NCBI GenBank assembly: GCA_019694755.1
Contig: JAIBBI010000045.1
Span: 1 to 33,978, forward strand
Length of the DNA: 33,978 nucleotides
Direction: 5' to 3'
DNA from: Gemmataceae bacterium
Lineage (GTDB): Bacteria; Planctomycetota; Planctomycetia; Gemmatales; Gemmataceae
A model generated the notes under the pieces. The model worked only from the letters and a program-made list of their open reading frames with translations, had not been told where the DNA came from and did not search any database. Below are positions 13,300-32,556 of the stretch, piece by piece. Each line of letters opens with the position of its first letter. Position 1 is the stretch's first letter. The position numbers and the translations under genes are program-made.

Positions 13300-13343
13300 A
13301 CGACGTACAATACCCGGCGCCTTAACTGCGGAGGTGCCGAGAC

Positions 13344-14330: not shown

Positions 14331-14355
14331 TCGCAACGCCGGGCCGGCGCGGGGC

Positions 14356-14384
14356 TTGCATCGGCCGGCCGGGCGTTTCACAAT
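14356..14384 (+). promoter_or_regulatory. Candidate promoter of the pilus/secretion block
   Basis: TTGCAT (14356-14361), a 17-base spacer and CACAAT (14379-14384) form a good housekeeping-type promoter in a 157-base gap. A transcript would start near 14391, leaving about 97 bases before the first ATPase gene at 14488. It is the clearest promoter upstream of the block. Assignment is by sequence match only. Confidence 0.5.
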
Positions 14385-14487
14385 GACAGAGTCGGCCCGT
14401 TTCCCCGGCTCGCCGGGCGGCTCCCCGCCGCTCCTGTGCCTGAATCCCCCGACAACTGCCCTGTTCGGTGTCCCCGGAGAGTGAGTA

Positions 14488-16206: not shown

Positions 16207-16302
16207 TCCGAACTCGTCTCGCTCCAATCGGTGGAACTGTTCGCAAGTTCACATCTCCGAAAAAGGTCGGTGATGCCCGGGGTGGCGAATCGACCGAAAT
16301 CG

Positions 16303-16330
16303 TTGACCGGTCAGGTCGACCGGCGATAAT
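16303..16330 (+). promoter_or_regulatory. Candidate promoter upstream of pilT
   Basis: TTGACC (16303-16308), a 16-base spacer and GATAAT (16325-16330) lie within the 205-base gap before pilT. This is the closest match to a consensus sigma-70 promoter in the window. A start near 16337 would give a leader of about 75 bases ending in the hairpin at 16384-16398. It suggests pilT is not solely dependent on the upstream promoter. Confidence 0.55.
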
Positions 16331-16383
16331 GGTGCGGGGCAAAATCCCGTCTGAGTCCATTCCGCGCAGCCGGTCGGTCGGCG

Positions 16384-16398
16384 CGGGGGCCGCCCCCG
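16384..16398 (+). promoter_or_regulatory. Hairpin just before the pilT ribosome site
   Basis: CGGGGG-CCG-CCCCCG forms a six-pair all-GC stem with a three-base loop. It ends two bases before the GAGGAT ribosome-binding sequence (16401-16406) of the TTG-initiated pilT gene. With the weak TTG start it could limit pilT translation, or it may simply reflect local GC content. Confidence 0.4.
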
Positions 16399-16411
16399 TG
16401 AGGATGATTCC

Positions 16412-17584: not shown

Positions 17585-17696
17585 CCCGATAGCTTCCGGC
17601 TGTGGCCCGTCGGCCCGCGATTCGCCCGTGTGAACGTCATGTGATAGAGCGCCCGGACGCCCCGTGGCCCAATGAGTAAGGACCCACTCCATCGCT

Positions 17697-19559
17697 ATGC
17701 CGCCGACCCCTAACAAGCCAGACCCGAAGAAGACCGTTCCTACGGCCAAAGGTGTTGCGCCGGGCAAGACGCCCGCCAAGCCCGCGCCGAAGAAGCCGGT
17801 CGAGAAGCCGAATGCCGCGCCGAAGGGTGGCTGGTCGGGCAGTGAGGCCGGTACCCGCAAGTTCGGCCAGGTGCTCGTTGACCTCGGGTTCCTCGACGAG
17901 GCTCAGCTCGACGAGCTGATGTTCGAGGTCCGCTCGTCCGAAATGCCCCTCGAGCAGCTTGCCCTCGACCGCGGACTGATCAACTCCGAGCAGATCCTGC
18001 AGGCCAAGGCCGAGCAGCACGGCTTGAAGGTCGTGAACCTCGATGAGGCCAAGCCGACCCCCGAAGCGCTCAAGCTCGTTCCGGAAAACATGGCCCAGGT
18101 CTACAAGGTGCTGCCGCTCAGCTTCGAGGGCGACACGCTGACCGTGGTCATGAACGACCCGGGAAACCTCGCCGCCCTCGACGACCTGCGGAATTTCCTC
18201 GGCGTCAAGTCGGTCACGGCCGTGCTCGCCCCGCAGTACCAGATCGACGAGCACACCAAGGAGGCTTACACCGGCAAGCCGCAGGAGAGCATTGTCGACC
18301 TGCTCGCCTCGCTCGAAGACACCGGCGGAAAGGGCCGGCAGCGCGAGACCTCGATCGACCTCGGCGACCTGATGGAAATCGCCGATTCCGCCCCCGTGCG
18401 CAAGCTGATCAACATGATCCTGCTCACGGCCATCCGCGACCGGGCCTCCGACATTCACTTCGAGCCGTTCGAAGAGGAGTACAAGGTCCGGGCCCGCTGC
18501 GACGGCGTGCTCATGGAGCTGATCCCGCCACCGCGTCACCTGGAGCGGGCCATCAGCAGCCGCATCAAGGTCATGTCGAATCTCGACATCGCCGAGCGGC
18601 GCATGCCCCAGGACGGCCGGATCGAGCTGAACGTCGGCGGCAACCAGATCGACCTCCGCGTCAGCATCCTGCCCACCATGTTCGGCGAGAGCGTAGTTAT
18701 CCGCGTGCTCGACCGCACGGTCGTCAACCTCGACCTCGACCGGCTCGGCATGGACCCGGCGGTTCTCGTCCCGTTCCGCGAGCTGATCCACAAGCCCAAC
18801 GGCATCGTGCTCGTCACCGGGCCGACCGGAGCAGGCAAGACTACCACGCTCTATTCCGCCCTCAATGAGCTGAACCAGATCACCGAGAAGATCATCACCA
18901 CCGAAGACCCGGTGGAGTACGAAATCGACGGCATCGTACAGTGCCAGATCCACCATGAGATCGACCTGACTTTCGCGAGCGCATTGCGGTCGATCCTCCG
19001 GCAGGACCCGGACATCATCCTCGTCGGCGAAATCCGCGACCTCGAGACCGCCCAGATCGCCGTACAGGCGTCGCTGACCGGGCACATGGTGTTCAGCACG
19101 CTGCACACCAACGACGCGTCGAGCACCATCACCCGCATGCGGGACATGGGCGTCGAGCCGTTCCTCATCACCGCGACGGTCGAGGGTATCATCGCCCAGC
19201 GGCTGGTCCGCAAGATCTGCAACAACTGCCGGCAGGAATACGATCCGGGCCCGGAACAGCTCATGGAGCTGAACATCACGGCCAAGGATCTCGCGGGTCG
19301 GAAGTTCTTCTACGGTGCGGGCTGCGACAAGTGCAATAACCTCGGTTTCAAAGGCCGGTGCGGCCTTTACGAAATGATCGTGATGGACGACGACCTCCGC
19401 GACATGATCTCGTCCGGCGCGTCGACCGACCTGCTCCGCAAGGCATCGCGCGACAAGGGCTTCGCGACCCTCCGCGACGCGGGCCTGGCGGCTTTGTACG
19501 GCGGAGTCACCACGCTCGACGAGGTGGTGCGGGAGACGGTGCTGGAAGACGAAGCGTGA
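17697..19559 (+). CDS. pilB: Type IV pilus/type II secretion assembly ATPase (PilB/GspE), copy 2
   Basis: A 620-residue assembly ATPase. Residues 1-50 are a Pro/Lys/Ala-rich, probably disordered extension. An MshEN-like domain follows (FGQVLVDLGFLDEAQLDELM, about 55-200). The core has SDIHFEPFEEEY, RMPQDGRIEL, Walker A GPTGAGKTT at 375-383, ITTEDPVEYEIDG, DIILVGEIRDLET and FSTLHTNDASS, plus the tetracysteine CNNC and CDKC. It is complete and more uniformly GC-rich than copy 1. The ATG at 17697 has only a distant AAGGA upstream. The gene lies directly before the platform gene pilC, the usual pilB-pilC neighbour order, so this copy is the more likely partner of PilC here. Whether the two ATPases act together or on separate fibres is unknown. 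Confidence 0.95.
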   Translation: MPPTPNKPDPKKTVPTAKGVAPGKTPAKPAPKKPVEKPNAAPKGGWSGSEAGTRKFGQVLVDLGFLDEAQLDELMFEVRSSEMPLEQLALDRGLINSEQILQAKAEQHGLKVVNLDEAKPTPEALKLVPENMAQVYKVLPLSFEGDTLTVVMNDPGNLAALDDLRNFLGVKSVTAVLAPQYQIDEHTKEAYTGKPQESIVDLLASLEDTGGKGRQRETSIDLGDLMEIADSAPVRKLINMILLTAIRDRASDIHFEPFEEEYKVRARCDGVLMELIPPPRHLERAISSRIKVMSNLDIAERRMPQDGRIELNVGGNQIDLRVSILPTMFGESVVIRVLDRTVVNLDLDRLGMDPAVLVPFRELIHKPNGIVLVTGPTGAGKTTTLYSALNELNQITEKIITTEDPVEYEIDGIVQCQIHHEIDLTFASALRSILRQDPDIILVGEIRDLETAQIAVQASLTGHMVFSTLHTNDASSTITRMRDMGVEPFLITATVEGIIAQRLVRKICNNCRQEYDPGPEQLMELNITAKDLAGRKFFYGAGCDKCNNLGFKGRCGLYEMIVMDDDLRDMISSGASTDLLRKASRDKGFATLRDAGLAALYGGVTTLDEVVRETVLEDEA

Positions 19560-19563
19560 CGCC

Positions 19564-19693
19564 CATTTGGGATTTTCGATTTGCGGTTCCGGATTTCCGG
19601 ACGGGAGCTGGAATCGCAGGCGAGGGCAGAGCGAAACGTGGATGAGCCTTCTTGGATTGCCAATCGCAATTCCAAAATCGCAAATCCAAAATG
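19564..19693. repeat. Inverted-repeat element between pilB2 and pilC
   Basis: CATTTGGGATTTTCGATTT (19564-19582) is matched at 17 of 19 positions by the reverse complement of 19675-19693. Both arms are built of repeated GATTT-like units, much more AT-rich than the flanking genes, and further related units lie inside (for example 19652-19673). No reading frame is supported within. It looks like a dispersed intergenic repeat or a tiny non-autonomous element inserted in the operon, just ahead of the pilC ribosome site. Confidence 0.6.
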
Positions 19694-19712
19694 AGACCCG
19701 GGAGGGCTGAAG

Positions 19713-20960
19713 GTGCCAACCTACAAATTCGAAGCGCTCGACACGGCCGGGTCCGAGGTCAAGGACCAGATCGACGCGCTCAACGAGGAAGAGGCGCAAC
19801 AGAAAATCCGCCAGATGGGCTACTTCGTGACCAAGCTCACGGCGGCGGCCCAGGCCAAGAAGGGCGGCAAGAAGGGTGGGCCCAAGGGCAAGAAGAAGAA
19901 GACGCGCACGATCTCCATCGGCGGCGTCTCCTCGAAGCAACTCTGTACCTTCACCCGGCAGTTTTCCACGCTCCAGGACGCCGGCCTGCCCGTGCTCCGC
20001 AGCCTGAAGATTCTCGAACACCAGATGAAGCCGGGCATCCTCAAGAACGCCCTCATCGACGTCGTCGAAGACGTCGAGTCCGGAACCGCGCTCTCCGATT
20101 CGCTGGGCAAGCACCCGAAGTGTTTCGACCGCCTCTACGTCAACATGGTCCGGGCCGGCGAGGCGGGCGGTGCACTCGAAGTCATCCTCCAGCGCCTCGC
20201 CGACTTCAAGGAAAAGTCGCAGTCGCTCAAGCGCAAGATCATCGGCGCGATGGTGTACCCCGTCGTGGTCATCCTCGTGGCCGTCAGCATTCTCGGCTTC
20301 ATCATGGTGGTGGTCATCCCGAAGTTCAAGAAGATCTTCGAGGACTTCAAACTGCCGCTGCCCGTGCCGACCGTCATCCTCATCAGCACCTCGATGTGGT
20401 TCGCCCGGTACTGGTGGGTCTTACCCCTGTTCCCGCTCGGGATGATCTTGCTGAACAAGTTGATCCGGCTGAGCAGGGCGGGGGCGTACGCGCTCGACAA
20501 GATGAAGCTCTGGGTGCCGCTCACCGGCAAGATCCTGGAGAAATCGATCGTCGCCCGGACAATGCGGACGCTGGGCACGCTGGTCGCGTCGGGCGTACCG
20601 ATTCTCGAATCGCTGGCCATCGTCCGCGAGACGTCCGACAACCTGGTGTTCGAGCGGATGTATCAGCGGGTTTACGAGTCGATCCGCGAGGGCGAGACGA
20701 TCGCCGAGCCGATGCGGCAATCCCGGCTGGTCGACGACATGGTCGTGAACATGATCGAGGTCGGCGAAGAGACCGGCGACCTCGACAGCATGCTCTACAA
20801 GATCAGCGATTTCTACGACGAGGAAGTCGATACCGCGGTGAAGAGCCTCATCAGTACGCTCGAGCCGCTCATGATCGTGATCCTCGGTCTCATCATCGGC
20901 GGCATCGTGATCTCACTGTTCCTGCCGCTCGTGAGTCTGATCGAAGGATTGAGCAAGTAA
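19713..20960 (+). CDS. pilC: Inner-membrane platform protein (PilC/GspF)
   Basis: A 415-residue polytopic protein that couples the assembly ATPase to pilin polymerisation. The N-terminus MPTYKFEALDTAGSEVKDQIDALN is the family start, and two T2SSF domains follow (TFTRQFSTLQDAGLPVLRSL and TMRTLGTLVASGVPILESLAI). Membrane segments are at about 176-205, 231-250 and 383-412. The conserved MVRAGEAGGALEVIL and MIEVGEETGDLDSML motifs are both present. A Lys/Gly-rich insert (KKGGKKGGPKGKKKKT, about 50-65) separates the first helix from the body, and several relatives lack it. The start is a GTG at 19713 with GGGAGG eight to nine bases upstream. Confidence 0.95.
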   Translation: MPTYKFEALDTAGSEVKDQIDALNEEEAQQKIRQMGYFVTKLTAAAQAKKGGKKGGPKGKKKKTRTISIGGVSSKQLCTFTRQFSTLQDAGLPVLRSLKILEHQMKPGILKNALIDVVEDVESGTALSDSLGKHPKCFDRLYVNMVRAGEAGGALEVILQRLADFKEKSQSLKRKIIGAMVYPVVVILVAVSILGFIMVVVIPKFKKIFEDFKLPLPVPTVILISTSMWFARYWWVLPLFPLGMILLNKLIRLSRAGAYALDKMKLWVPLTGKILEKSIVARTMRTLGTLVASGVPILESLAIVRETSDNLVFERMYQRVYESIREGETIAEPMRQSRLVDDMVVNMIEVGEETGDLDSMLYKISDFYDEEVDTAVKSLISTLEPLMIVILGLIIGGIVISLFLPLVSLIEGLSK

Positions 20961-20972
20961 AGAAGAATCATC

Positions 20973-20999
20973 CCCGCGTCCCGCGGCCCGGGACGCGGG
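20973..20999 (+). promoter_or_regulatory. Strong hairpin between pilC and the first pilin gene
   Basis: CCCGCGTCCC (20973-20982) and GGGACGCGGG (20990-20999) form a perfect ten-pair stem with a seven-base loop. No U-rich run follows, so it is not a standard intrinsic terminator. Its place between the platform gene and the first pilin-like gene suits a processing, stability or attenuation element that sets pilin dose above that of the machine genes (inference). Confidence 0.55.
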
Positions 21000-21022
21000 A
21001 GCCCCGTACTGAGGAGCGAGTC

Positions 21023-21922
21023 ATGGTCCGATCATCCGTTCATCGCCGGGCCGGCTTCACGCTGGTGGAAGCCCTGGTCGTCGTGTCGATCATTGTCATC
21101 CTCGCGAGCCTGACCACCGCGGCGGTCGTGCGGGCCCTGCAGTCGGCCGAAGACGCCCGCGTCGTCGCCGAGATCAAGCAACTCGAAAACGCAATCGCGG
21201 CGTTCAAGAGTGAATTCGGCGTCGACTATGTGCCGGGCCACGTCAAACTTTTCAACAACTTGAACAACTACAACGCCGCGAACCTCAAGACGACCGATCC
21301 GGTGGCCTTCGAGACCAAGCAGTTTCTCGCCACTATGTTTCCCCGGTTGCCCTTCGCCGGCACGATTGCCTGGAGCGGTTCTGGTTCCGGCACCTATGAG
21401 CTGTTTGGGCCGGAGTGCCTCGTGTTCTTCCTCGGCGGCCGCAACGGTCTCGACGGCTTCTCCAAGAATCAGACCGACCCTTGGAACGGAGCAGGCAGCC
21501 GCAACAAGCCTTTCTTCGAGTTCGACCAGAAGCGGCTCAAGCTGATGGCTTGGAATACGAGCTTCCCCGCCTACCTCGACCCGTACAACAGCGGCGCGGC
21601 CGAAGACCAGCCGTACTACTACTTCACATCGAAGAAGGGCGGTGACTACTCCGCGCTCGACACGTTCGTTCCGTCTCCGGGCGCATACGGCACGATCAGG
21701 ATCGCGCCGTTCCGCGACACCTCCAACCGGTTCATCAACCCGAACGGCTTCCAGATTCTCTCGGCCGGGCGCGACAAGCGGATCGGCAACTTCACGCTCA
21801 CGACAGCGGAGCCGTTCGTGAAGTGGAGCAATGGCACGTTTACCTCGGCCGCATCCCCGGGCAACGAGCCGCAGGACAACCTGGCGAACTTCCACCCGGT
21901 CAAGCTCGGTATCCCGCAGTGA
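21023..21922 (+). CDS. GspG/PilA-like major (pseudo)pilin, copy 1
   Basis: A 299-residue prepilin. The class III signal RRAG|FTLVEALVVVSIIVILASL has Gly at -1, Phe at +1 and Glu at +5 of the mature protein, followed by the long hydrophobic helix and an amphipathic continuation (RALQSAEDARVVAEIKQLENAIAAFKSEFG) as in GspG. The globular part ends with GFQILSAGRDKRIGN, matching the GspG-style C-terminal F-x-I-x-SAG-x-D signature. It is about twice the size of classical GspG, with an inserted Tyr/Asn-rich region. The ATG at 21023 has GAGG upstream; a much longer frame in the same phase would run antiparallel to nothing useful and overlap pilC, so it is rejected. Gene order (first pseudopilin after F) also fits G. 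Confidence 0.88.
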   Translation: MVRSSVHRRAGFTLVEALVVVSIIVILASLTTAAVVRALQSAEDARVVAEIKQLENAIAAFKSEFGVDYVPGHVKLFNNLNNYNAANLKTTDPVAFETKQFLATMFPRLPFAGTIAWSGSGSGTYELFGPECLVFFLGGRNGLDGFSKNQTDPWNGAGSRNKPFFEFDQKRLKLMAWNTSFPAYLDPYNSGAAEDQPYYYFTSKKGGDYSALDTFVPSPGAYGTIRIAPFRDTSNRFINPNGFQILSAGRDKRIGNFTLTTAEPFVKWSNGTFTSAASPGNEPQDNLANFHPVKLGIPQ

Positions 21923-21930
21923 GGACGATC

Positions 21931-22887
21931 ATGCCACGCATACGACTGCGCCGGTCGGGCTTCACGGCCATCGAGCTCCTGATCGTCGTGACCATTCTGG
22001 GCATCATCGCCGCGCTGACCGCCGGCGCGGTTGTCCGGGTGATGGCGTCGGCGGAAAAGAGCGCGACCGAAACGACTCTGACCAAGCTCGCCAGCGTGCT
22101 CGACATCCACTGGAAGGCCGTCATTGACTCCGCGAAGAAGGAGTATGACGGCCTGCCATCGGGCATCAAGGCGAATCTGCTCGCCCTGGCAGACAACCAG
22201 GCCAACACGCCGGCGACACCGAAGCCGCACCCGCGCCGCGACGACCGTGCTCGGCTGCTGTACGTGAAGTTCCGGCTGAAGCAGGAGTTTCCGACATCAT
22301 TCGCGGCGGCCGCGGACCCCGCCCCGAACTACCTGCCCGCTCAGTCGGTACCGCCGATCGCAGGACTGTACACGGGCAAGCCGGCGTACATCAAGGCGAT
22401 CAACGGCAAGACGATCGGCCTCGGCAAGGAGTCAGCTGCGTTGCTGGTCCTCGCCCTGCAGCAATCGCGGGCTGGCGTGGCCTCGACGCCGATCGAGCAA
22501 CTCGTCGGCGGGTCATTTCTCCGCCAGGAAAACGGTCTGAGCTATCTCGTCGACAGTTGGGGCTCGCCGCTTCAACTGTTCATCTTCCCGACCGCAGCCA
22601 CCGCGGGCACAACCGACCTGAATGCGGGCAACGACCCGCAGGACCCCGAGGGGCTGCTCAAAACCGTCGCCGTCAGCAAGTGGCAGGCATTGCCGATCTT
22701 CGCAACGCTGCTGCACCCGCAGATCGATTCCCGCCGGCTGGTTCCGGTGATCGTGTCCGCCGGGCCCGACCGGCTACTCGGCGGCTCGGGATCGCAAAGC
22801 AACCCCACGATGAATCTGACCAGCCCGGATGCCGACGACAACATCTACAGCTATCGCCTGCGCCAGTCCGGCGCTCGGGGGGATTGA
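21931..22887 (+). CDS. GspG-like (pseudo)pilin, copy 2
   Basis: A 318-residue prepilin starting eight bases after the previous stop, with GAGGA as ribosome site. The processing site is RRSG|FTAIELLIVVTILGIIAAL with Glu at +5. The helix continues as AVVRVMASAEKSATETTLTKLASVLDIHW. The globular portion carries YLVDSWGSPLQLF (the D-x-WG-x-P element common in GspG-like pilins) and ends with LVPVIVSAGPDRLLGG and a DADDNIYSY tail. It is related in design to copy 1 but not a simple duplicate, being clearly different between the helix and the C-terminus. Two G-like subunits could form a mixed fibre, or one may be a minor subunit. Confidence 0.86.
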   Translation: MPRIRLRRSGFTAIELLIVVTILGIIAALTAGAVVRVMASAEKSATETTLTKLASVLDIHWKAVIDSAKKEYDGLPSGIKANLLALADNQANTPATPKPHPRRDDRARLLYVKFRLKQEFPTSFAAAADPAPNYLPAQSVPPIAGLYTGKPAYIKAINGKTIGLGKESAALLVLALQQSRAGVASTPIEQLVGGSFLRQENGLSYLVDSWGSPLQLFIFPTAATAGTTDLNAGNDPQDPEGLLKTVAVSKWQALPIFATLLHPQIDSRRLVPVIVSAGPDRLLGGSGSQSNPTMNLTSPDADDNIYSYRLRQSGARGD

Positions 22888-22890
22888 GCC

Positions 22891-24030
22891 ATGAATCGAC
22901 ATTCGCGGCAAGGTCTCACACTCATTGAGTTGCTCGTGGTCATGGCGATCATGGGCATCCTCGGCGGCATTGTCGCCGTCGTCGCGCCGAAGTTCGCACA
23001 GTCGTCGCGGGTCGCCGAAGGGTCGCGCCAGCTGACCAACTGGCTTTCTCTGGCCCGCCAGCGGGCCCAGCGCGACAAGGCGCCGCGCGGTATCCGCTTC
23101 GCCGGCACGCTGCCAACCAGCGTTTCCCGGCAGCAGGAGCTTTACAGCTCTTTCGTTTACGTCGAACAACCGGAAGACCTGGCAGTCGATGTCCGCGAAA
23201 TCGATCTGGTGCCGCAGAACCAACTCGCCAACCGGCGCGTTGCTTTCCGCACCCAGGCGTTCAGCAATCTGCAGTTCGGGATCAGCGACCCGGCACAAAA
23301 GTACACGGCGACGCAGAAGACCAAGTTCCAGACGTATCGCAACGCCCTCGATCCGGCCAACACGGCCAACGTGAACAGTTGGCTCTATCTGTTGTGGTTC
23401 GCCAACCGGAATCTGGCCGTCGCACCCGGATCACCGGCCGCGAGCCAGGTCATCCGCGACGGCGACATCGTGCAGTTCGGCAACGCCCGATACACGGTCG
23501 TGTACGAACCGATTGTCGACCCCGCGGGCACTGGCAGCTTCGTGATCCTGAATCGGCCGCGCGACGAATTCCGGTATCAGGTCCCGGAAATGACTGCCCC
23601 ATTGCCGCCGGCCCGGATCATCCGGTCGCCCCGGCCCATCGCCGGCGAAGCCGAGTTGACCCTGCCGCGTGACGTGGCGGTGGACATTCTCTGGACCAAC
23701 AAGTCGGCCGGCGTGAACTACGCTCGAACATTACCCGCTCCGGACGTCAACGACCCGCCTGGGTCGCAGTTCTTCGACGTGATGTTCGCTCCCTCGGGCG
23801 AGGTGGTCGGCGGGCTGGGTGGTTACGGCCGGCTGGTCTTCTGGCTCCGCGACACGTCCCTGAAAGATTCGGGCGGCGGCACGCTGCCCCAGGGCGAGAA
23901 CCGCCTGATCGTCGTCCATTGCCGGACCGGCCAGATTACGTCGCACCCGGTCGCCATCGACCCGTCGGGCAATCCCAGCGACGCCTACCAGTTCATCCGC
24001 GACGGCAAGTCGTCGGCGAATGAGGATTGA
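22891..24030 (+). CDS. GspH/FimT-like minor pseudopilin
   Basis: A 379-residue prepilin. The signal RQG|LTLIELLVVMAIMGILGGIVAVV has Glu at +5. Next comes SRQLTNWLSLARQRAQRDKAPRGIRF, the region where GspH/FimT proteins carry their L-x-x-AR-x-x-A...G-x-x-x-x pattern. A large beta-rich domain follows with PGSQFFDVMFAPSGEVVGG, recalling the FimT F-x-P-x-G-x-x element, and a final GRLVFWLRD...RLIVVHCRTGQITSHPV. It is larger than classical GspH (about 170 residues). The ATG follows the previous stop by three bases, so it is co-translated with its neighbours. Its third place in the pseudopilin series matches H. Confidence 0.84.
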   Translation: MNRHSRQGLTLIELLVVMAIMGILGGIVAVVAPKFAQSSRVAEGSRQLTNWLSLARQRAQRDKAPRGIRFAGTLPTSVSRQQELYSSFVYVEQPEDLAVDVREIDLVPQNQLANRRVAFRTQAFSNLQFGISDPAQKYTATQKTKFQTYRNALDPANTANVNSWLYLLWFANRNLAVAPGSPAASQVIRDGDIVQFGNARYTVVYEPIVDPAGTGSFVILNRPRDEFRYQVPEMTAPLPPARIIRSPRPIAGEAELTLPRDVAVDILWTNKSAGVNYARTLPAPDVNDPPGSQFFDVMFAPSGEVVGGLGGYGRLVFWLRDTSLKDSGGGTLPQGENRLIVVHCRTGQITSHPVAIDPSGNPSDAYQFIRDGKSSANED

Positions 24031-24038
24031 GGCACGCC

Positions 24039-25124
24039 ATGAAACGCCACGGCACCACACTCATCGAAGTCCTCGCCGCGATCTTCATCCTCGCGCTCGG
24101 ACTCGTAGCGCTCATGACGCTCTTCCCGCTCGGGGCAGCCCAGATGGCCCGCTCGATTCAGGACGAGCGCGCCGCCCAGATTGCGGGTAACGCCGCCAGT
24201 TACTTCCGCTGGTACTGGCGCTCGCAGTGCGAGCCGGACATGATGAACCGGACCGGCGACAAGATGCTGTACGAATCAGTCAACCCGTCGTGGTACGGCG
24301 CGGCCCTCGACGATCCGAATGCCGGCGTACCCAACGCTTACGTCAAGACAGCCACCAACATCTTCCCGGCACCGGCCAATACGGCGGCGAACATCTCCGC
24401 GCGGTCGCGTTCGTCGCTCCCCAGCTATCCCGTCTTTATCGACCCTGTCGGGTGGATGGCGGCCGGCGCGTCGGTGGACCAATACTGGGTCGGAGAGAAA
24501 TCACCGACCGTGCCCCCGGCCGGCTACATCCACGCCCCGATTCCGCGCCGGACTATCGTCGGCATGACCACGCTGCCCCAGGTGCTGCGGATGTTTTCGA
24601 TGCTCGACGACATGGGCTTCGACACCAGCGGCGTCAGCAATGTGAATGAACGGAGCAGCCAATACAGCTACGCCTGGCTGCTGCGCCGCAACAACAGCAG
24701 CCTCCGCCAGGAAGTGAACCTGACGGTCGTCGTGTACTTCCGACGGTCGCTGGCGACGCTCGCTCAGGAGGCGAACTACGTGGCTACTGTGAACGCCCCG
24801 GCTACGACCGACGGCACGACCAACACCGTGACCCTGCACTACACCGGCGAACGCCCGTCCATCCGCCGGGGTTCGTGGATCCTGGACGCATCGATGGGCA
24901 ACATCGCCACCGGCGTAGTTCCCCAGGGCTTCTACTACCGCGTGACCGAAGTGGGCGAGCCGCAGGTGGTCGGCAGCGAAAACACGATCGACTTGCAGGT
25001 GGAGACGCCGCTGAAGTTCGGCCCCTCGGGCGCGAAGTCGCGGGTGTTCGTCGTACAGGATCGCGTGCTGGAAGTGTTCGACAAGGGCACGATCGATATG
25101 ACCTCGCCGCCGCGGGTGAACTGA
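24039..25124 (+). CDS. GspI/PilV-like minor pseudopilin
   Basis: A 361-residue prepilin with a short leader MKRHG|TTLIEVLAAIFILALGLVALMTLFPLGAAQMARS. Glu at +5 and the LALGLVALM-type helix followed by small residues are typical of GspI/PilV. The rest (NAASYFRWYW, SQYSYAWLLRRNNSSLRQEVNLTVVVYFRRS) is beta-rich and ends FVVQDRVLEVFDKGTIDMTSPPRVN. I chose the ATG at 24039 with GAGG seven bases upstream over the TTG at 24027, because the leader then fits the family. It is eight bases from the preceding stop. Confidence 0.84.
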   Translation: MKRHGTTLIEVLAAIFILALGLVALMTLFPLGAAQMARSIQDERAAQIAGNAASYFRWYWRSQCEPDMMNRTGDKMLYESVNPSWYGAALDDPNAGVPNAYVKTATNIFPAPANTAANISARSRSSLPSYPVFIDPVGWMAAGASVDQYWVGEKSPTVPPAGYIHAPIPRRTIVGMTTLPQVLRMFSMLDDMGFDTSGVSNVNERSSQYSYAWLLRRNNSSLRQEVNLTVVVYFRRSLATLAQEANYVATVNAPATTDGTTNTVTLHYTGERPSIRRGSWILDASMGNIATGVVPQGFYYRVTEVGEPQVVGSENTIDLQVETPLKFGPSGAKSRVFVVQDRVLEVFDKGTIDMTSPPRVN

Positions 25125-25137
25125 ACAGGGTGATGCC

Positions 25138-26547
25138 ATGACACGACAGAACCGACGCCGCGGTCTGACCCTGGTCGAGATGCTGGTCGCGACCGCGCTG
25201 ATCATTTTCGTAATGACGATCCTGGCGAGCGTGTTCACGTCGGGCATCGGCGCGCTGCGCTCGCTCCGCGGTGTAGGGCACCTGCAGGACAATCTGCGGA
25301 CGGCCACGAACATCCTTCGGCGGGATCTCGCCGCTCCGCACTTCGGGCGCGACGTTTCGCCGACGGCGGGGCCGTACCTCAGCCAGCAGCGGCTCGACCT
25401 CGCCGACTGGATTCCACCTTCGGAAGGCTTCTTCCGCGTCGTTCAGGGCTCGATCTCCACGGCCGAGGGGTTCGACGGCGACGGTATCCCGTCTTACCGG
25501 GCGACGAATCACGCGCTGCACTTCAGCGTCCGGATGGAGCCGAATGCGATCGAGGGCGGCGGCCGGGACCGCATGTTCACAACCCGCGACATCCCGTCTT
25601 CGATGATGGCGGGGATGATGATGCCGGGCTCGACCACCGACTGGCGGCTCGCGCCGACGCAGATGAGTTACATGATGAACGACGACAATCCGCGCTACGC
25701 CAGCCGGTGGGCCGAAGTGGCCTACTTCCTGGCGGCGAGCGGTCAGTCGGCCGGGGATACGCCGCTCTACACGCTGTACCGCCGGCGACGCGTACTGCTC
25801 GACGGGCGCACGCCCAACGACGATTTCTCCGCGATCACCGTGAACCCGCTGCAACTGCCCCAACAGACCGCAGACCTGCGGACCGACGCCAGTCTGTTCT
25901 CCAACCCGACCACCGGCACGGCGTTTTACAACACCGCGGCCGACGCTGCCAATCCGATGCGGCGCTACGGCGTAACGGCCACGGCCAAGGCGATCACCGC
26001 CCAGCAGACGGGCACGATGACCGGCCTCGCCGCCGCCGACCAGATCGCGCTCGCGGGCCTCGCGACCTATACCCCGATCAACCAGACCAATGCCAGCGAC
26101 GCCGCGACGACCAACACTCTGCGGACCAATGCAGGCGGTGACGACATCCTGATGGAGAACGTGATCTCCTTCGAGGTGCGGGTGAACTGGGATGTGCCAA
26201 ACGTCACGTCAACCACGCTCGCAACCGGGGCAGCCAATCCAACCTATGCCCCGACCCTGGCGGCCGCGCTCGTCCGGTCGCCGCGGAACACGCTGGCCAG
26301 TGACTACCCGTTCGACATTCTGCCGGAATCGCCGGCGGCGTTCGGCAATCCGGTCTACGCCAGCGCGGCCGGGCCGTTCGTGTTTGATACGTGGAGCTCG
26401 CGCAATTCCTATCAGGCGATCGGCACCGGTCAAAGCCCCATGAACATTCCCCTCCGCATTCGCGTCAAGGCGATTCAGATCCGCCTGCGGGTGTGGGACA
26501 TCAAAACACAGCAGGCCCGCCAGGTGACCCTGGTGCAGGACATGTAA
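25138..26547 (+). CDS. GspJ/PilW-like minor pseudopilin
   Basis: A 469-residue prepilin. The processing site is RRRG|LTLVEMLVATALIIFVMTILASVFTSG with Glu at +5. Then comes GALRSLRGVGHLQDNLRTATNILRRDLAAPHF, the GspJ/PilW feature where a helix leads into L-R-x-DL. The domain contains EVAYFLAASGQSAGDTPLYTLYRRRRVLL (W-style Y-x-V-x-x-x-x-L-x-R segment) and ENVISFEVRVNW, and ends RIRVKAIQIRLRVWDIKTQQARQVTLVQDM, the usual GspJ/PilW terminal strand. AGGGTGAT precedes the ATG. It completes the minor pseudopilin set before the giant K-like gene, 145 bases downstream. Confidence 0.85.
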   Translation: MTRQNRRRGLTLVEMLVATALIIFVMTILASVFTSGIGALRSLRGVGHLQDNLRTATNILRRDLAAPHFGRDVSPTAGPYLSQQRLDLADWIPPSEGFFRVVQGSISTAEGFDGDGIPSYRATNHALHFSVRMEPNAIEGGGRDRMFTTRDIPSSMMAGMMMPGSTTDWRLAPTQMSYMMNDDNPRYASRWAEVAYFLAASGQSAGDTPLYTLYRRRRVLLDGRTPNDDFSAITVNPLQLPQQTADLRTDASLFSNPTTGTAFYNTAADAANPMRRYGVTATAKAITAQQTGTMTGLAAADQIALAGLATYTPINQTNASDAATTNTLRTNAGGDDILMENVISFEVRVNWDVPNVTSTTLATGAANPTYAPTLAAALVRSPRNTLASDYPFDILPESPAAFGNPVYASAAGPFVFDTWSSRNSYQAIGTGQSPMNIPLRIRVKAIQIRLRVWDIKTQQARQVTLVQDM

Positions 26548-26692
26548 ATCGACCACGAGGGCGGGAGATGGCCATCGGATAAACGCGGGGCAGGCCGATC
26601 GTACGCCACCGGGCGACTATTCATACCCCGGCCGCCGCCGCCAGTTCATCCGGAGTCTGTCACCTGCCGTCATTTCATTCGGAGGTGTCATC
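26548..26692. other. Gap between the J-like and giant K-like genes
   Basis: This 145-base gap contains no gene. It ends in GGAGG seven bases before the giant gene's ATG. I see no convincing promoter hexamers and no terminator. It is the longest gap in the pseudopilin series. Confidence 0.35.
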
Positions 26693-29600
26693 ATGTTACT
26701 TCGCAGCCGCGAGCCACGCCGGGGGATCATCCTCGTCGTCGTGGTCTCCATGCTCGCCCTGTTTGCCGTCATCGGCCTGGGGTACGTCATCTACTCCGAG
26801 TCCGCGGCCACGTCGAGCCGCATCAGTCGCGAGACGCAGGTCGTCATCGACGACCGCGCGGTCATTGAACCCGAGCTGGCGCTCAACCAGGCCCTCGGCA
26901 CGCTGATCTACGACAAGCCCGACGACGCCACCGGCGTGTACTGCGCCCTGCGCGGCCACAGCCTCGCGCGGAGCATGTACGGCTGGAACCCGCCGGCCAA
27001 CACCCTCAATGTGAACAGCAACCAGGTGCCCTACAACGGCACGGGCCGGCTGAAGTACACCGACCTGTTCTCCAATCTGCCTTCCGAGCAGATCATCAAC
27101 TTCACGACCTTCCCGGGCGATCAGGTGATCCGCAGCCCGGAAAAGTACCCGATCGATCCGACCAACGCCTCGAGCTACGCCCGGCCCGGCTCGGACCCGA
27201 CGCGCTACTTCGGCGGGTACAACGTGCCGTACACGTACCCCGACCTCAACAACGTGTTCCTTGCCGCGGTCCGCGCGACGGACGGCCAGGTGCTTATCCC
27301 GTCGTTCCACCGCCCGTATCTGTTTCGCCAAGGCGGTAACGCCAATCAGCCGGTCGATTACAGTTTCCTCACGAACTCGACACACCCGGATTGGTATCGC
27401 CCCAGCGGCCGGCTCAAGCTGCTGCGCCCCCGGCCGGTCGATCAGCTCACCGCCGCCCAGGTCCAGGCGGCCGGCGTCCCGTACCCGATCCAGGAAAACA
27501 TCACTCCGGGTCAGATCAATCAACTGCGAAACACTATCGTCGCGCTCCAGGCTGCGGGTAAGCTGCTCCAGTATCCGAATGACCCGGGCGGCGACGTGAA
27601 GAACCTGCCCGGCAGCCCGGGCGGCAACGACAGCGTGTGGGTCGATATCGGCCTGCCCGTCCGCACCACCCGGTCCGGCAAGAAGTTCAAGCCTATGGTC
27701 GCCTTTCTCATCCGCGACCTCGACGGGCTCATCAACATCAATGCCGCGGGCAACATCTCCGGCGTGAACCAGTCGCATGTCAGCAATCAGGGCCTGGGCC
27801 GGCACGAGATCAGCATTGAAAAGCTGCTCGGCACCGAGGCGAAAAACCTGTTCCAGGGCAACGCTGCCGTGAAGCAGCCGGGGCGTTACACTGCGTCGGC
27901 GACGGCGAGCTATCCCCTGACGACACCGGCCAACCTGCTGCCGTCGTTCCTCCAACCGCCGACCACGCCGAACGGCGTGAACATCACGCCGCAGGCCCCG
28001 CGCCCGGCCAACGAATTGACCTTCGGGCCGACCTACCTGCCGGTCGATGTGGACGCGGGCCGGTACGACCCCAGCGTCGGCACCGGGCTTTTCCGCAGCT
28101 TCGCGGCCCAGGCGTACACGTTTTCGAATCAGGTACCGCTCACGCTCAGCAGCTATCCGGACCTTTACACCGTTCCGATGCGCACGCCGCCGATCCCCTC
28201 GACGGGCTACGACGGCGACGTGGCCGGCGAACGGTTGAACCACCCCCTGCTGTTCAACACGATGCGGCCGACGGGCAACTCCCGACTGCTCGACGGGAAG
28301 GAAATGCACCGGCTGCAGGGGCGCTATAGCAGCCCGCTCGATTGGCAGGACAGCATTCTGAGCAAGCTGATCCCGGTGACGGCCCAGTCGGCCGTGGCCC
28401 GGCACGCGATCACGCTGTTCAGCGCGGACTTGGCCCGGCCGGGGCTCACGCCGCAAACCTTCCGGCTCGACCCGACCAACCCGCCGAACCAGTACACGAT
28501 CGATACGTCGAACCCGAACCAGACCATGCCGTGGGCGGCGCAGGGCGAGCAATTCCCGCCGTTGAGTGTCGTCCCGGCCGCGGGCACGCCGCCGCAGACG
28601 ATGGACAGCGACTTTCTCGGCAACCCGTTCTACTACTTCGCGCCGGTGGCCACGACCGCGAGCAGCCCGGCGGGTGTGAAACTGCCGGTTACTTCGCCGC
28701 CGTCCACGAGCCCGATTCTCCTGCACGACGGCCGGAGCTTCATGGCCGGCGTCCGCGAGCGGATCGACCTCAATCGGCCGCTCAAGCAGTACCCGCCGGT
28801 CGTCGCCAATGGCTCGGGCAAGGGGCAGTTCTTCAACACGGCCGACCCGAACTTCGCGACGCAGTTCACCGCGGCGGAGCAGGATCGCCAGGCGTTCTGC
28901 AAAGATATCTTCGACGTGTTGGTGAAGGCGACGGGCGTACCTGCGCCGTCGGCGACGCTCGCGCCCGGCACGCCGGACTTCCTGACCCTGAAGTATCTCG
29001 CACAACTTGCCGTGAACATCGTCGACGATATTGACGAGGACGACGTGATGACCGTGTTCCGCTGGACCACGGAGTCAAGTGTCCCGCCGACCGAGGCGTT
29101 CGTGTACGGCGTCGAGATGCCGAAGGTGGTCATCAACGAAGCGTACGTCGAACAGACAAACGGGCCGCAGGGCGACCCGATGTACGTGAAGCCGGCAACG
29201 ATGTCAATGCCGCCGATGGCGCTCAAATATCAGGTCAACACGTTTGTCGAATTGCACAACACGATGACGCCGCCGTTCCTGAACGAGGAGAACGGCAGCC
29301 AGGCGACGCTGAACTACAACGCCTTCGTCGCCCGCCACTCGCAATGGCTGTACAATGCCCCTCAGACATCTCCCTCGTATTCCGCTTACAGGCTCTACGT
29401 CGCGAAGGCGACCACGGTGCCAGAAGATTCGGCTCTCGTTGGCGATCCTCCGGCCACTGCAAAAGGGCTAGATGATCAAGCAGTCAAATACGTACTGTTC
29501 GCCGACGACCCGATGAGCGTCAAGGACCACATCAAGCCGGTGGATACCTCAGTGGTGTCCGGTCCTTCGGGGCCGTGCAGTTATCGCTGCAAGACCGGCG

Positions 29601-31804
29601 TGAAGAACGGCGGGTTCTTTGTGATTGGTCCGGACCAAATCAGCAATCTTGTAGCTCCCGGTTGGACGTTTTCAACGCCAGGCTCGACTGTTGAAAGCGC
29701 GAATATGCGGTTTGACGTACCGGCGGGGCAGCCAGTCCTCCCTCCGATAATAGTCTTGCAACGATTGGCGAATCCGTACATTCCGGAACAGCCGAATCCT
29801 GCTGGACCGGCTTATAACCCATATGTCGCAGTTGATGTCATGGATCTCAGGTCACAAACAGTTCCGCAGGCTTTGGGAGTTCCCACTCCGCCTCCCGGCG
29901 GAGCGAACAACAACGCGACGTTCATGCGGCGCCAGCCTTTCAGTGGCGAAAAGTCACTCATTCGCCAGAGCACCGCGCCAGATCCCAGCGGGAGCGGGCC
30001 TAAGAACACGTTCTTCTCCCACAATGCCAGCACAGGATCGACGGCTCCGACGCAATTGCCTGAGCCAGGTACCGGACTCGAGCGTTTTGATTGGTACATC
30101 CACCACGACCGCAAGCTCACGAGCCCGGCCGAGCTGATCCATGTTGCCGGCGTGACGCCGTGGTTCGTCACCCGTCGGTTCATGTACGAAGACGTGACAA
30201 ATCCTGGACGCATTGTCCGCCAGGGTCATACGGCCGCCTGGACGGACGAGCGCGAGATCATCGACCCGATGTCAGGTAAGTTCGGGAAAAAGATACCGCT
30301 GCAAGACGTCTCCCCGACGCCTACGACGCCGGGCAATCCGCCCACACTGAGCGCACGGCTTTACCGCACGCTCGAAATGTTCCGCACCGGCGACCGCACC
30401 ATCGAGATGGGCTTCGGCGGGCGGGATGTGGGCAAGGTCAACATCAACACGATCTGGGACAAGGTGGTCTTCGACGCCGTGTGCGACGGCGTGGCCAAGA
30501 GTGTCACGGTCGGCAGCACGCCAGTTTACCTGCCCGATGCCGCCTACGGCTTCACGCAAATGGACGTCGACAGTGCGTGGATCGCCCTGACAACGAATGT
30601 CAATCTGACGGCGCGGACGCCGAACCTGAACACGCTTTACACCGTGTCCGGTTTGCCGATGGGCACCCCGCCGGGCATCGGGCTGGCGACCAGCCCGTCG
30701 GCATTCCCGGGGCAGCCGTACACGCAGATCGGCGAACAGGATATGCCGTTCTGGGGCATGGGCGCGCCGCACGCGCTCCAGAGTCCCGCGAACGCGCAGT
30801 ACCCGATAATGCCCACCGGGGCGACCGCGCCGGCCTGGCAGTTCGTCCAGAATCAGGGCATTGAGGCGACGCTGTTCCGCAGCTTGGTGCCGCGCGTGCC
30901 CAACGACCCGCGGTTCCAGCGGACCAAGGTCTTCGATGCCGAGAGTCAGTATCTCGTGACACCTGCCGGCTCCAGCTCGCCGCTGGTGCCGGGTGTGCCG
31001 ACCTCGGTGAATCCCGAGCCGGCGGTCCGGCATCCGTTCCTCGAGAAGTCGATGATCACAAAGATCTTCGAGCACTTCACCACGCGGTCGAACGTGTTCG
31101 CAGTGTATATGACCGTCGGCTACTTCGAAGTGATCAACGACAGCTCCAAGCCTGAGCTGTTGGGCGACGAGATCGGCGTGATCCGCGATTCGACAGGGGC
31201 CGTGGCGGAAAACAAGACGACCCGCCACCGCATGTTCGCGATCATCGACCGGACCAACCTCGCGTTCCAGTCCGGCAGCTACGACTACACCAACTCCAAC
31301 AACGCCACCATCGTCGGCGACGACCAGATGAAGCAGGGCGAATCGCCGTTCTACTACACCAGCCAGGTCGAGCTCTGGCCGAGCGGTCCGTACGCGGGCG
31401 CGTGGACCGTGACTTTGCCCGCGACCTCGACGAGCGGCAACCTGCCCGGCGGGTTCGTGCAATCGGCGACCGGCACCTGCAACGGCGTCGGCTGGCGCCT
31501 CCAGGCCGTATCGAATGCCACGACGTCGGCATCGCTTCTGTACGTCAACACAGGCTCTTCTGAGCAGCGGCTTGCGGTGCGGGCGATCCGCCCGGCCGGC
31601 GCGGGCTTCGTCCATGTGCTGCTCGGCAACCCGCCGAAGCAGTCGCCGCTCAACCCCTCAAGCTGGCCCAGCCTCGGGGCCGCACCCTTGGCCCCGATCC
31701 GGATTACCAACGGCATCGCGGGCAACCCCGGCCCCCAGCCGGACTTCGACCACAAACTGCCTAACTACCGCGGCGTAGTCCTCTACTCCGTGATCCTCGA
31801 CTGA
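26693..31804 (+). CDS. Giant GspK/PilX-like minor pseudopilin (1703 residues)
   Basis: A single uninterrupted 1703-residue frame. The N-terminus EPRRG|IILVVVVSMLALFAVIGLGYVIYSESAATSS is prepilin-like, but residue +5 is Val, not Glu. GspK is the pseudopilin that normally lacks Glu5. K-type Asn/Asp-rich motifs occur three times: FLIRDLDGLININAAGNISG (about 336-355), LKYLAQLAVNIVDDIDEDD (about 765-783) and GRDVGKVNINTIWDKVVF (about 1242-1259). Typical GspK has about 300-350 residues, so this is about five times larger. GspK caps the I-J-K tip complex, and here the tip would carry a very large outward domain. No catalytic motif or named domain is recognised between the landmarks. GGAGG seven bases before the ATG supports the start. 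Bases about 29345-30110 have markedly lower GC at third codon positions than the rest. Confidence 0.85.
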   Translation: MLLRSREPRRGIILVVVVSMLALFAVIGLGYVIYSESAATSSRISRETQVVIDDRAVIEPELALNQALGTLIYDKPDDATGVYCALRGHSLARSMYGWNPPANTLNVNSNQVPYNGTGRLKYTDLFSNLPSEQIINFTTFPGDQVIRSPEKYPIDPTNASSYARPGSDPTRYFGGYNVPYTYPDLNNVFLAAVRATDGQVLIPSFHRPYLFRQGGNANQPVDYSFLTNSTHPDWYRPSGRLKLLRPRPVDQLTAAQVQAAGVPYPIQENITPGQINQLRNTIVALQAAGKLLQYPNDPGGDVKNLPGSPGGNDSVWVDIGLPVRTTRSGKKFKPMVAFLIRDLDGLININAAGNISGVNQSHVSNQGLGRHEISIEKLLGTEAKNLFQGNAAVKQPGRYTASATASYPLTTPANLLPSFLQPPTTPNGVNITPQAPRPANELTFGPTYLPVDVDAGRYDPSVGTGLFRSFAAQAYTFSNQVPLTLSSYPDLYTVPMRTPPIPSTGYDGDVAGERLNHPLLFNTMRPTGNSRLLDGKEMHRLQGRYSSPLDWQDSILSKLIPVTAQSAVARHAITLFSADLARPGLTPQTFRLDPTNPPNQYTIDTSNPNQTMPWAAQGEQFPPLSVVPAAGTPPQTMDSDFLGNPFYYFAPVATTASSPAGVKLPVTSPPSTSPILLHDGRSFMAGVRERIDLNRPLKQYPPVVANGSGKGQFFNTADPNFATQFTAAEQDRQAFCKDIFDVLVKATGVPAPSATLAPGTPDFLTLKYLAQLAVNIVDDIDEDDVMTVFRWTTESSVPPTEAFVYGVEMPKVVINEAYVEQTNGPQGDPMYVKPATMSMPPMALKYQVNTFVELHNTMTPPFLNEENGSQATLNYNAFVARHSQWLYNAPQTSPSYSAYRLYVAKATTVPEDSALVGDPPATAKGLDDQAVKYVLFADDPMSVKDHIKPVDTSVVSGPSGPCSYRCKTGVKNGGFFVIGPDQISNLVAPGWTFSTPGSTVESANMRFDVPAGQPVLPPIIVLQRLANPYIPEQPNPAGPAYNPYVAVDVMDLRSQTVPQALGVPTPPPGGANNNATFMRRQPFSGEKSLIRQSTAPDPSGSGPKNTFFSHNASTGSTAPTQLPEPGTGLERFDWYIHHDRKLTSPAELIHVAGVTPWFVTRRFMYEDVTNPGRIVRQGHTAAWTDEREIIDPMSGKFGKKIPLQDVSPTPTTPGNPPTLSARLYRTLEMFRTGDRTIEMGFGGRDVGKVNINTIWDKVVFDAVCDGVAKSVTVGSTPVYLPDAAYGFTQMDVDSAWIALTTNVNLTARTPNLNTLYTVSGLPMGTPPGIGLATSPSAFPGQPYTQIGEQDMPFWGMGAPHALQSPANAQYPIMPTGATAPAWQFVQNQGIEATLFRSLVPRVPNDPRFQRTKVFDAESQYLVTPAGSSSPLVPGVPTSVNPEPAVRHPFLEKSMITKIFEHFTTRSNVFAVYMTVGYFEVINDSSKPELLGDEIGVIRDSTGAVAENKTTRHRMFAIIDRTNLAFQSGSYDYTNSNNATIVGDDQMKQGESPFYYTSQVELWPSGPYAGAWTVTLPATSTSGNLPGGFVQSATGTCNGVGWRLQAVSNATTSASLLYVNTGSSEQRLAVRAIRPAGAGFVHVLLGNPPKQSPLNPSSWPSLGAAPLAPIRITNGIAGNPGPQPDFDHKLPNYRGVVLYSVILD

Positions 31805-31813
31805 CGGGAATTC

Positions 31814-31857
31814 GAATCACGAAAGCACGAAAAGACGGAAGCACGAAACGGAAGGGC
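31814..31857 (+). repeat. Left terminal inverted repeat of the cassette
   Basis: The 44-base left arm contains three CACGAAA units in tandem-like spacing. Its inner end, GCACGAAACGGAAGGGC (31841-31857), recurs exactly at 32311-32327 in direct orientation. Bases 31826-31846 also pair with 31873-31893 (20 of 21) to form a long hairpin ahead of the gene. Confidence 0.7.
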
Positions 31858-31872
31858 TCCGGTCGCCCTTAC

Positions 31873-31893
31873 TCGTGCTTTCGTCTTTTCGTG
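31873..31893 (-). repeat. Hairpin partner arm upstream of the GxxExxY gene
   Basis: This 21-base segment is complementary to 31826-31846 with one mismatch, and 26 bases lie between the arms. The structure ends about 30 bases before the ATG at 31923. Confidence 0.65.
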
Positions 31894-31922
31894 GTGAGTC
31901 TTGCCTTCGGGGAGACGACGCG

Positions 31923-32291
31923 ATGGGCCATCAGTTCGAGGAATTGTCGAGCCTGATCCTCGCGGCTGCTGTCGAGGTCCACAAGTCGTTGGGGCCGGGA
32001 TTTCTCGAGCCCATCTATCATCGAGCCATGGAGGTCGCCCTAGAACATCGAGGAGTACCATTTCTGACGGAAAAAAAGGTTCACATCTTCTTCGAGGGAG
32101 TTGAAGTCGGAATCCACCGACTGGACCTGATTATCGATTCCCGGATCGTCGTGGAACTCAAAGCGATCAAGGCGTTCGAAGACATCCATTTCGCTCAGGT
32201 CCGGTCCTACCTGAAGGCCACCGGCCTGCACACGGGCTTGCTGCTCAATTTCAACGCCCCGACTCTTGCCATCAAGCGAATCGTGCTGTGA
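31923..32291 (+). CDS. GxxExxY protein (PD-(D/E)XK nuclease-fold)
   Basis: A 122-residue protein. The defining motif is G26-F-L-E29-P-I-Y32, within VHKSLGPGFLEPIYHRAM. The PD-(D/E)XK-like core follows: Asp68 in HRLDLIID, then Glu79 and Lys81 in VVELKAI, and Gln92 in HFAQVRSYL. All putative catalytic residues are kept and the length is normal for the family, so the gene looks intact. The family's biological role is not established; the fold suggests nucleic acid cleavage or binding. GGGGAG lies nine to ten bases upstream of the chosen ATG; an earlier ATG at 31875 would place the upstream hairpin inside the coding region. It is the only gene in the repeat-bounded cassette, downstream of the giant GspK gene and upstream of tRNA-Cys. 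Confidence 0.88.
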   Translation: MGHQFEELSSLILAAAVEVHKSLGPGFLEPIYHRAMEVALEHRGVPFLTEKKVHIFFEGVEVGIHRLDLIIDSRIVVELKAIKAFEDIHFAQVRSYLKATGLHTGLLLNFNAPTLAIKRIVL

Positions 32292-32310
32292 CCAAGGGCG
32301 GATCACGATA

Positions 32311-32352
32311 GCACGAAACGGAAGGGCCGATCTATTGCCTTCCTTTTCGTGC
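32311..32352. repeat. Hairpin downstream of the GxxExxY gene
   Basis: GCACGAAACGGAAGG (32311-32325) pairs with 32338-32352 at 14 of 15 positions around a 12-base loop. An outer pair, GGATCACGA (32300-32308) with TCGTGATCC (32371-32379), is perfect. It could act as a transcription end or as a recognition structure for the element. Confidence 0.65.
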
Positions 32353-32379
32353 TTTCGGACTTTCGTGATTTCGTGATCC
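32336..32379 (-). repeat. Right terminal inverted repeat of the cassette
   Basis: Read on the minus strand, this 44-base arm begins GGATCACGAA and repeats CACGAAA units, matching the left arm at 35 of 44 positions. The right edge lies 105 bases before the 3' end of tRNA-Cys, in a stretch with no other recognised feature. Confidence 0.7.
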
Positions 32380-32484
32380 GGTTCTCCTACAACTAAATGG
32401 GATTCGCGACTTCGGGCCGGCGGCAACTGCCAGCCAATCAATGACTTACAGCGGGAAGTGTGCCGAACGGCAACAGAAGAGAAG

Positions 32485-32556
32485 AGGCCTCGGGCGGATT
32501 CGAACCGCCGTATGACGGTTTTGCAAACCGTTGCCTTACCACTTGGCGACGAGGCC
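32485..32556 (-). tRNA. tRNA-Cys (GCA)
   Basis: The minus strand gives a full cloverleaf. The acceptor stem GGCCTCG/CGAGGCC is perfect, the D loop has AAGTGGTAA, the anticodon arm is ACGGT-TTGCAAA-ACCGT with anticodon GCA, and the T arm is GGCGG-TTCGAAT-CCGCC. The discriminator base is U73, the hallmark of tRNA-Cys. CCA is not encoded (CTT follows), so it must be added after transcription. Confidence 0.97.

Follow-up and report, generated by a model that had tools for sequence, protein, structure and literature searches.

Bacterial genomes contain two described systems in which a single gene is enclosed by inverted repeats. In the RAYT/REP system, the gene lies between inverted repeats with which it coevolves and co-occurs, and the sequence between repeats is non-homologous from copy to copy (PMC2817692). 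The Coxiella IVS carries terminal inverted repeats, has heptameric repeats ahead of its ORF, and is excised by RNase III (PMC4990558). Here we compare with both a small unit from a Gemmataceae bacterium, found in a stretch of 33,978 nucleotides that we call the window (contig C87 of the source genome, a 5.6 Mb draft). The unit lies between a long plus-strand gene that ends at 31804 and a tRNA-Cys gene on the minus strand (32484–32556), and its features are collected in Table 1.

Table 1. Features of the unit, in window coordinates.
Feature	Position	Strand	Detail or basis
Whole unit, ~570 bp	31813-32383		Gene with a hairpin at each end
Left end, complete hairpin unit of CACGAAA-type words	31813-31896		ATCACGAAAGCACGAAAAGACGGAAGCACGAAAC ... 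GTGCTTTCGTCTTTTCGTG; fold -46.3 kcal/mol
Outer left arm, pairs with outer right arm	31813-31855	+	43 nt, 84%
GGGGAG, candidate Shine-Dalgarno, 8 nt 5′ of ATG	31909-31914	+	Read from sequence
GxxExxY gene, 122 aa, PD-(D/E)XK fold, QxxxY subtype	31923-32291	+	Profiles, model, fold
Codons of D68, E78-x-K80 and Q92-xxx-Y96 (catalytic-type)	32124-32210	+	Residue conservation
Right end, complete hairpin unit, same words as left	32297-32383		Fold -38.2 kcal/mol
Outer right arm, pairs with outer left arm	32338-32380	+	Inverted repeat

The first-pass annotation described inverted ends of 44 bases that match at 35 positions. The inverted ends are real, and the repeat search now places the outer arms 482 nt apart, with 36 of 43 nt complementary (84%). 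The inverted-repeat score of the unit, taken between sequence locally upstream and downstream, is 31; 2000 random positions of the same geometry within the window average 9 and reach at most 15.8. Each end folds as a separate hairpin when treated as RNA (left -46.3 and right -38.2 kcal/mol), as had been annotated, and the ends are also detectable as direct repeats in a repeat search of the window. Two complete copies of a hairpin unit describe the ends better than simple terminal repeats do. For the gene, a GTG start at 31875, within the left hairpin, is an unlikely alternative to the ATG at 31923. Also in agreement with the annotation, there is no transposase within the unit. Upstream, the gene run at 12352–31804 resembles by eye a type II secretion or type IV pilus cluster, with two GspE-like ATPases, a PilT-like ATPase, a GspF-like protein, several pseudopilin-like N-termini and a 1703-aa protein.

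The encoded protein is a full-length match to TIGR04256 (E 7e-37, 126.3 bits against a cut-off of 35) and also matches PF13366 (E 5.5e-36, 123.9 bits against a cut-off of 22), the latter being its only Pfam match. It carries all motif residues of this GxxExxY or PDDEXK_3 family, with G26, E29 and Y32 in the GxxExxY motif and D68, E78 and K80 in the D...ExK motif. The catalytic-type and motif residues are conserved among 27 relatives, with Q92 present in 26 of the 27 and Y96 in 25, and this conservation implies that nuclease activity is under selection. D68, E78-x-K80 and Q92-xxx-Y96 form the QxxxY pattern known from Cas4, RecB and lambda exonuclease. The predicted structure has a pLDDT of 95, and the structure closest to it is that of the Cas4-type nuclease SSO0001 (Z 10.1), followed by lambda-type exonucleases, Holliday resolvases and MGME1 (Z ~6–7). 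The window protein thus shares both fold and D...ExK...QxxxY with the QxxxY-subtype nucleases but is much smaller, at 122 aa, and is encoded singly between hairpins, with no CRISPR or recombination partner seen. The annotated PD-(D/E)XK-type gene with intact catalytic residues is thereby confirmed. PADLOC and PHROGs gave no credible match, and a PDB sequence search found nothing. A toxin-antitoxin or defence unit was considered and rejected, as there is no partner gene and no PADLOC support. The family annotation assigns GxxExxY proteins no role; in the present data they are coupled to flanking repeats.

CACGAAA-type inverted repeats had been proposed to flank GxxExxY genes at large, and matching arms do occur family-wide, although the word in them differs by protein clade. 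Paired inverted arms (score ≥18) flank 103 of 148 GxxExxY genes from many phyla, while the control ORFs of the same loci have them in 2 of 372 cases. By sample, the arms flank 53 of 72 Planctomycete-type genes, assembled as 32 and then 40 more from the source genome and its relatives (mostly draft genomes), and 50 of 76 cross-phyla genes, a sample that includes Chloroflexota, Cyanobacteria, Acidobacteria, Proteobacteria, Bacteroidota and Verrucomicrobia; the 80 loci from which these usable ones come are the top ones by similarity to a single query, which tilts the sample toward one clade. A finer control scan found 3 of 470 ORFs at ≥17.5, one of which is another GxxExxY gene. Chance origin of the window arms is ruled out by the random-position and control-ORF scores. 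In 24 of 32 loci, the own-pair arms ranked first among 32 pairings, and the pairing is therefore a feature of each cassette and not something that flanks share in general. Two observations had been named as counting against the link: GxxExxY genes without repeats do exist, with ~30% lacking detectable paired arms, and repeats around unrelated genes are almost never seen.

The arms stand directly before the start codon and after the stop codon, at median distances of 42 and 29 nt from the HMM match. This placement, and the ability of REP-like palindromes to stabilise mRNA, count for a reading in which the arms are regulatory, as terminator, mRNA-stability element or autoregulatory operator of a nuclease that serves the host, and the element does not move. 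We consider it very unlikely given the many gene-less copies elsewhere, the patchy presence of the cassettes, their decayed copies and the two clades at one site that are described below.

An arm consists of near-tandem words, two to five in number, each ~7 nt long and set apart by short spacers, and the word changes with the protein clade. The GPGLLESAYE clade has ACCACAGAG-GA-CACAGAG arms, the IAxIIVD clade CGCAAAG, the ExY-start clade CACGAA(A/T), the KPGLDEKLYE clade CACGGAT, the GNGFQEVIYQ clade GGATT words, and the window clade CACGAAA. Across 139 cassettes, protein identity correlates with arm k-mer similarity (Mantel r 0.39; 0 of 5000 permutations, with 0.13 the largest permuted value), and among 64 within-genome paralogue pairs the protein-arm correlation is r 0.48. 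The three proteins nearest to that of the window (65–67%), from three other genomes, have CACGAAA arms that are among the ten most similar of 138. The arms accompany the gene across phyla, match within a copy and change with the protein clade. This covariation could partly reflect co-inheritance of the whole unit rather than recognition, but co-inheritance fails to account for arms that are readable at 45–65% protein identity with scrambled gene-less interiors. GxxExxY genes on a Gemmatirosa plasmid (L210), on a Persicobacter plasmid (L204) and in Prevotella (L209) have other words, CCTTCTTCAGT, AATCCxxTTAATC and ACAAATCGG.

Orphan repeat pairs without the gene, which the first-pass annotation had suggested looking for, were found in quantity and are commoner where GxxExxY is present. 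Among 79 relatives, the pattern ACCACAGAGN{1,3}CRCRGAG reaches up to 118 copies per genome, and the reversed-pattern control gives one hit across all 79. Of the 45 genomes with a GxxExxY gene, 19 have at least two ACCACAGAG-type copies, as against 0 of 34 without one (p 5e-6; p 3e-4 when only genomes of ≥5.5 Mb are compared), and genomes with PF05635 but without GxxExxY have 0–1 copies. The window word follows the same course: four or more copies are present in 4 of the 5 genomes that have a window-clade gene and in 4 of the 74 that do not, all four of the latter having another GxxExxY gene. In Mucilaginibacter, two or more repeats occur in 12 of 22 genomes with a clade-A gene and 8 of 79 without (p 3e-5), and one genome (G133) has 24 ACCACAGAG-type repeats and no GxxExxY gene detected; repeats can therefore persist without the gene. 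When 20 of the ACCACAGAG-type places were read in detail, they proved to be hairpins of 76–207 bp with shared arms. The interiors of 14 gene-less hairpins in one genome (G014) have a mutual similarity near the shuffled level. They are therefore not plain copies of one MITE, and the lack of shared internal sequence is a difference from DDE insertion sequences and MITEs. One gene-less hairpin of that genome (L370, 206–265) has about six CACAGAGG words in one arm and three in the other; word number in the arms therefore changes, perhaps by slippage.

The source genome has three GxxExxY genes. The two outside the window adjoin short palindromes of other words, GCCGCCGAG/CGCAGAG and GCCGCCAAGGCGCAAAG, and at least three gene-less CACGAAA hairpins lie elsewhere in the genome (C137:51567–51658, C186:6257–6386 and C186:20202–20318). 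The same genome (G000) has a second word class, CCACGAAGGCACGAAG, at C42, C128, C137:69701, C140 and C165; the C42 occurrence is a gene-less hairpin, and none of the three GxxExxY genes has a CCACGAAGGCACGAAG cassette.

The abundance of gene-less copies bears on whether the GxxExxY gene is passive cargo or a bystander, with an unrelated transposase moving MITE-like hairpins. There are more gene-less hairpins than cassettes, a few genomes keep such hairpins although they lack the gene, and another palindrome (GTCATTGCGAGGAACGAAGC) is also found at the Mucilaginibacter site discussed below, all of which lean toward cargo. We nevertheless judge this quite unlikely: the arm words change with the protein clade even inside single genomes, GxxExxY genes are what recurs between such arms in the scan of 470 ORFs, and repeat presence in Planctomycetes tracks GxxExxY and not PF05635.

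Gene-less hairpins lie mostly in genomes that have the gene, and sites that hold a cassette in one genome are empty in relatives. In Bacteroides finegoldii, a cassette lies between radA and the gene of an FAD-dependent protein; the same two genes in Parabacteroides distasonis are 13 bp apart, and the site is empty. One Mucilaginibacter site, compared in ~70 species, is short and empty in many and in others holds either a clade-A cassette (CACAGAG arms) or one of clade B (GGATT arms). The site also shows decayed genes, gene-less hairpins and one hairpin nested in another. A series of three genomes with flanks 93–95% identical captures the site empty (37 bp; G184), with clade A and CACAAAG arms (G115) and with clade B and GGATT arms (G112). 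The presence of both clades at one site therefore indicates at least two separate arrivals. No target-site duplication was seen between filled and empty Mucilaginibacter and Bacteroidales sites, whose divergence is too high to resolve one. Of 59 relatives, 53 have the downstream gene of the window, but at the 23 relative loci checked its counterpart has no tRNA nearby; synteny is therefore lost, and an empty site, as read in Mucilaginibacter and in Bacteroides/Parabacteroides, is unreadable for the window itself.

Other arrangements were seen at the Mucilaginibacter site. In G113 (L294), two hairpins of different words are nested, GGGATTTGG outside and GAATT inside, which suggests that one inserted into the other. 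Other Mucilaginibacter species (L271, L273, L281 and L318) have an unrelated palindrome, GTCATTGCGAGGAACGAAGCAATCGC..., at this intergenic site, and in G111 (L260) the flanking genes are in opposite orientation, a possible rearrangement.

The main rival explanation places the element at the RNA level, as an IVS-type element whose arms pair in operon mRNA and whose hairpin is processed by RNase III or the encoded protein; insertion between operon genes would thereby be tolerated, and any spread would go via RNA. PF05635 four-helix genes outside rRNA have the same anatomy in 24 of 30 Planctomycete loci, which fits this explanation, as do the heptameric repeats of the Coxiella IVS (PMC4990558). 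Arm mismatches lean to sense-strand changes that G.U pairing tolerates (251 vs 209, p 0.056; by locus 65 vs 37, p 0.007), but this wobble signal is weak and is absent in PF05635 (40 vs 36). Similarly, cassettes in co-directional spacers are mostly in sense orientation (44:10, and 15:1 for PF05635), yet so are ordinary genes of the same loci (111:39), and the bias of the cassettes, strong when compared to 50:50, is near that of ordinary genes. The fold nearest to GxxExxY is moreover that of a DNA nuclease, and overall we consider the RNA-level explanation unlikely. The PF05635 (23S_rRNA_IVP, S23) genes have arm words of their own, AGTTTTC, AGCTGTC, GTAGGCA and AGTCCCA, distinct from those of GxxExxY, at loci L173–L202 of relatives and on contigs C123, C209, C137, C108 and C19 of the source genome; with paired arms outside rRNA, they are apparently a sister system of IVS elements.

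We consider it probable that the window unit represents a small and widespread element, in which a GxxExxY nuclease gene lies between inverted heptamer-word arms and the nuclease acts on the arms of its own clade. The recurrence of the unit, with repeats that track the gene, suggests a class of tiny genomic element that has so far gone unrecognised. We infer that the protein recognises and nicks its own arms because the data mirror four properties of RAYT/REP, and it may by cleavage bring about movement of the repeats. The nuclease, with its Cas4/lambda-exonuclease-like core and QxxxY, would bind own-clade arms, with the arms probably in the form of a single-strand or cruciform hairpin, and would nick or trim at the arm hairpins. 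It counts against this reading that a PD-(D/E)XK hydrolase alone cannot join strands. Host repair or replication would spread copies of the element to intergenic sites, or renew them there. The gene-bearing form would be autonomous, and the 60–210 bp hairpins would be mobilised in trans, following RAYT/REP logic.

A REP/RAYT-like pairing of a nuclease with its own hairpins, on an unrelated enzyme, appears to be the best reading by analogy. As in REP/RAYT, the GxxExxY gene is flanked by two inverted palindromes that coevolve with the protein, repeat abundance tracks the gene, and many gene-less copies exist with non-homologous interiors. The tie to its own repeats in the REP/RAYT manner, which the first-pass annotation had proposed, therefore holds as an association, seen in family-wide arms, clade covariation and gene-less copies that track the gene. 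The enzymes differ, GxxExxY being a PD-(D/E)XK hydrolase where REP/RAYT has an HUH/Y1 tyrosine transposase; the latter is absent from the window gene, which has PDDEXK_3/GxxExxY matches only. The arms lack the GTAG/GTGG head of REP/RAYT, having instead CACGAAA, CACAGAG, GGATT and other words, and are near-tandem 7-nt words over 25–45 nt in cassettes that often lie between operon genes. With the 23S rRNA IVS and its S23p (PF05635; PMC4990558), the element shares a unit of ~0.4–0.6 kb, one small ORF in the loop, terminal inverted repeats (~28 bp in the IVS) that enclose the ORF, and heptameric repeats before it. In place of the four-helix protein it has the GxxExxY nuclease, the repeat words differ, and the cassettes are intergenic, at operon sites elsewhere, outside rRNA; an Rfam scan of the window gave two tRNAs only. 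The element departs from REP/RAYT in enzyme and head, and from the IVS in place and ORF, and we therefore file it under neither: it works like REP/RAYT and is built like an IVS.

No link of GxxExxY to repeats was found in the literature, where the family receives passing mentions, PF13366/TIGR04256 appear only in unrelated context, and the arm sequences appear only in unrelated animal work; subscription papers and preprints lay outside the search, which makes priority uncertain. More tentatively, we suggest a separate autonomous/non-autonomous class, in which a lone PD-(D/E)XK nuclease, without transposase, integrase or reverse transcriptase, reads a clade-specific heptamer code and spreads via host DNA repair, and which together with a parallel S23/four-helix class might make up a large share of bacterial short intergenic palindromes.

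GxxExxY genes are present in many phyla without an assigned role, and their coupling to repeats offers a concrete and testable one. Unannotated intergenic palindromes of the CTCTGTG, TTCGTG, TTTGCG and AATCC types are explained as parts of gene-bearing elements with a readable clade-to-repeat code. To our knowledge, the purpose of the S23/IVS four-helix protein has been open for more than 25 years. If the GxxExxY nuclease acts on its own hairpins, an unrelated enzyme would have arrived at the REP/RAYT logic on its own, and the S23/IVS four-helix protein may be a second such case.
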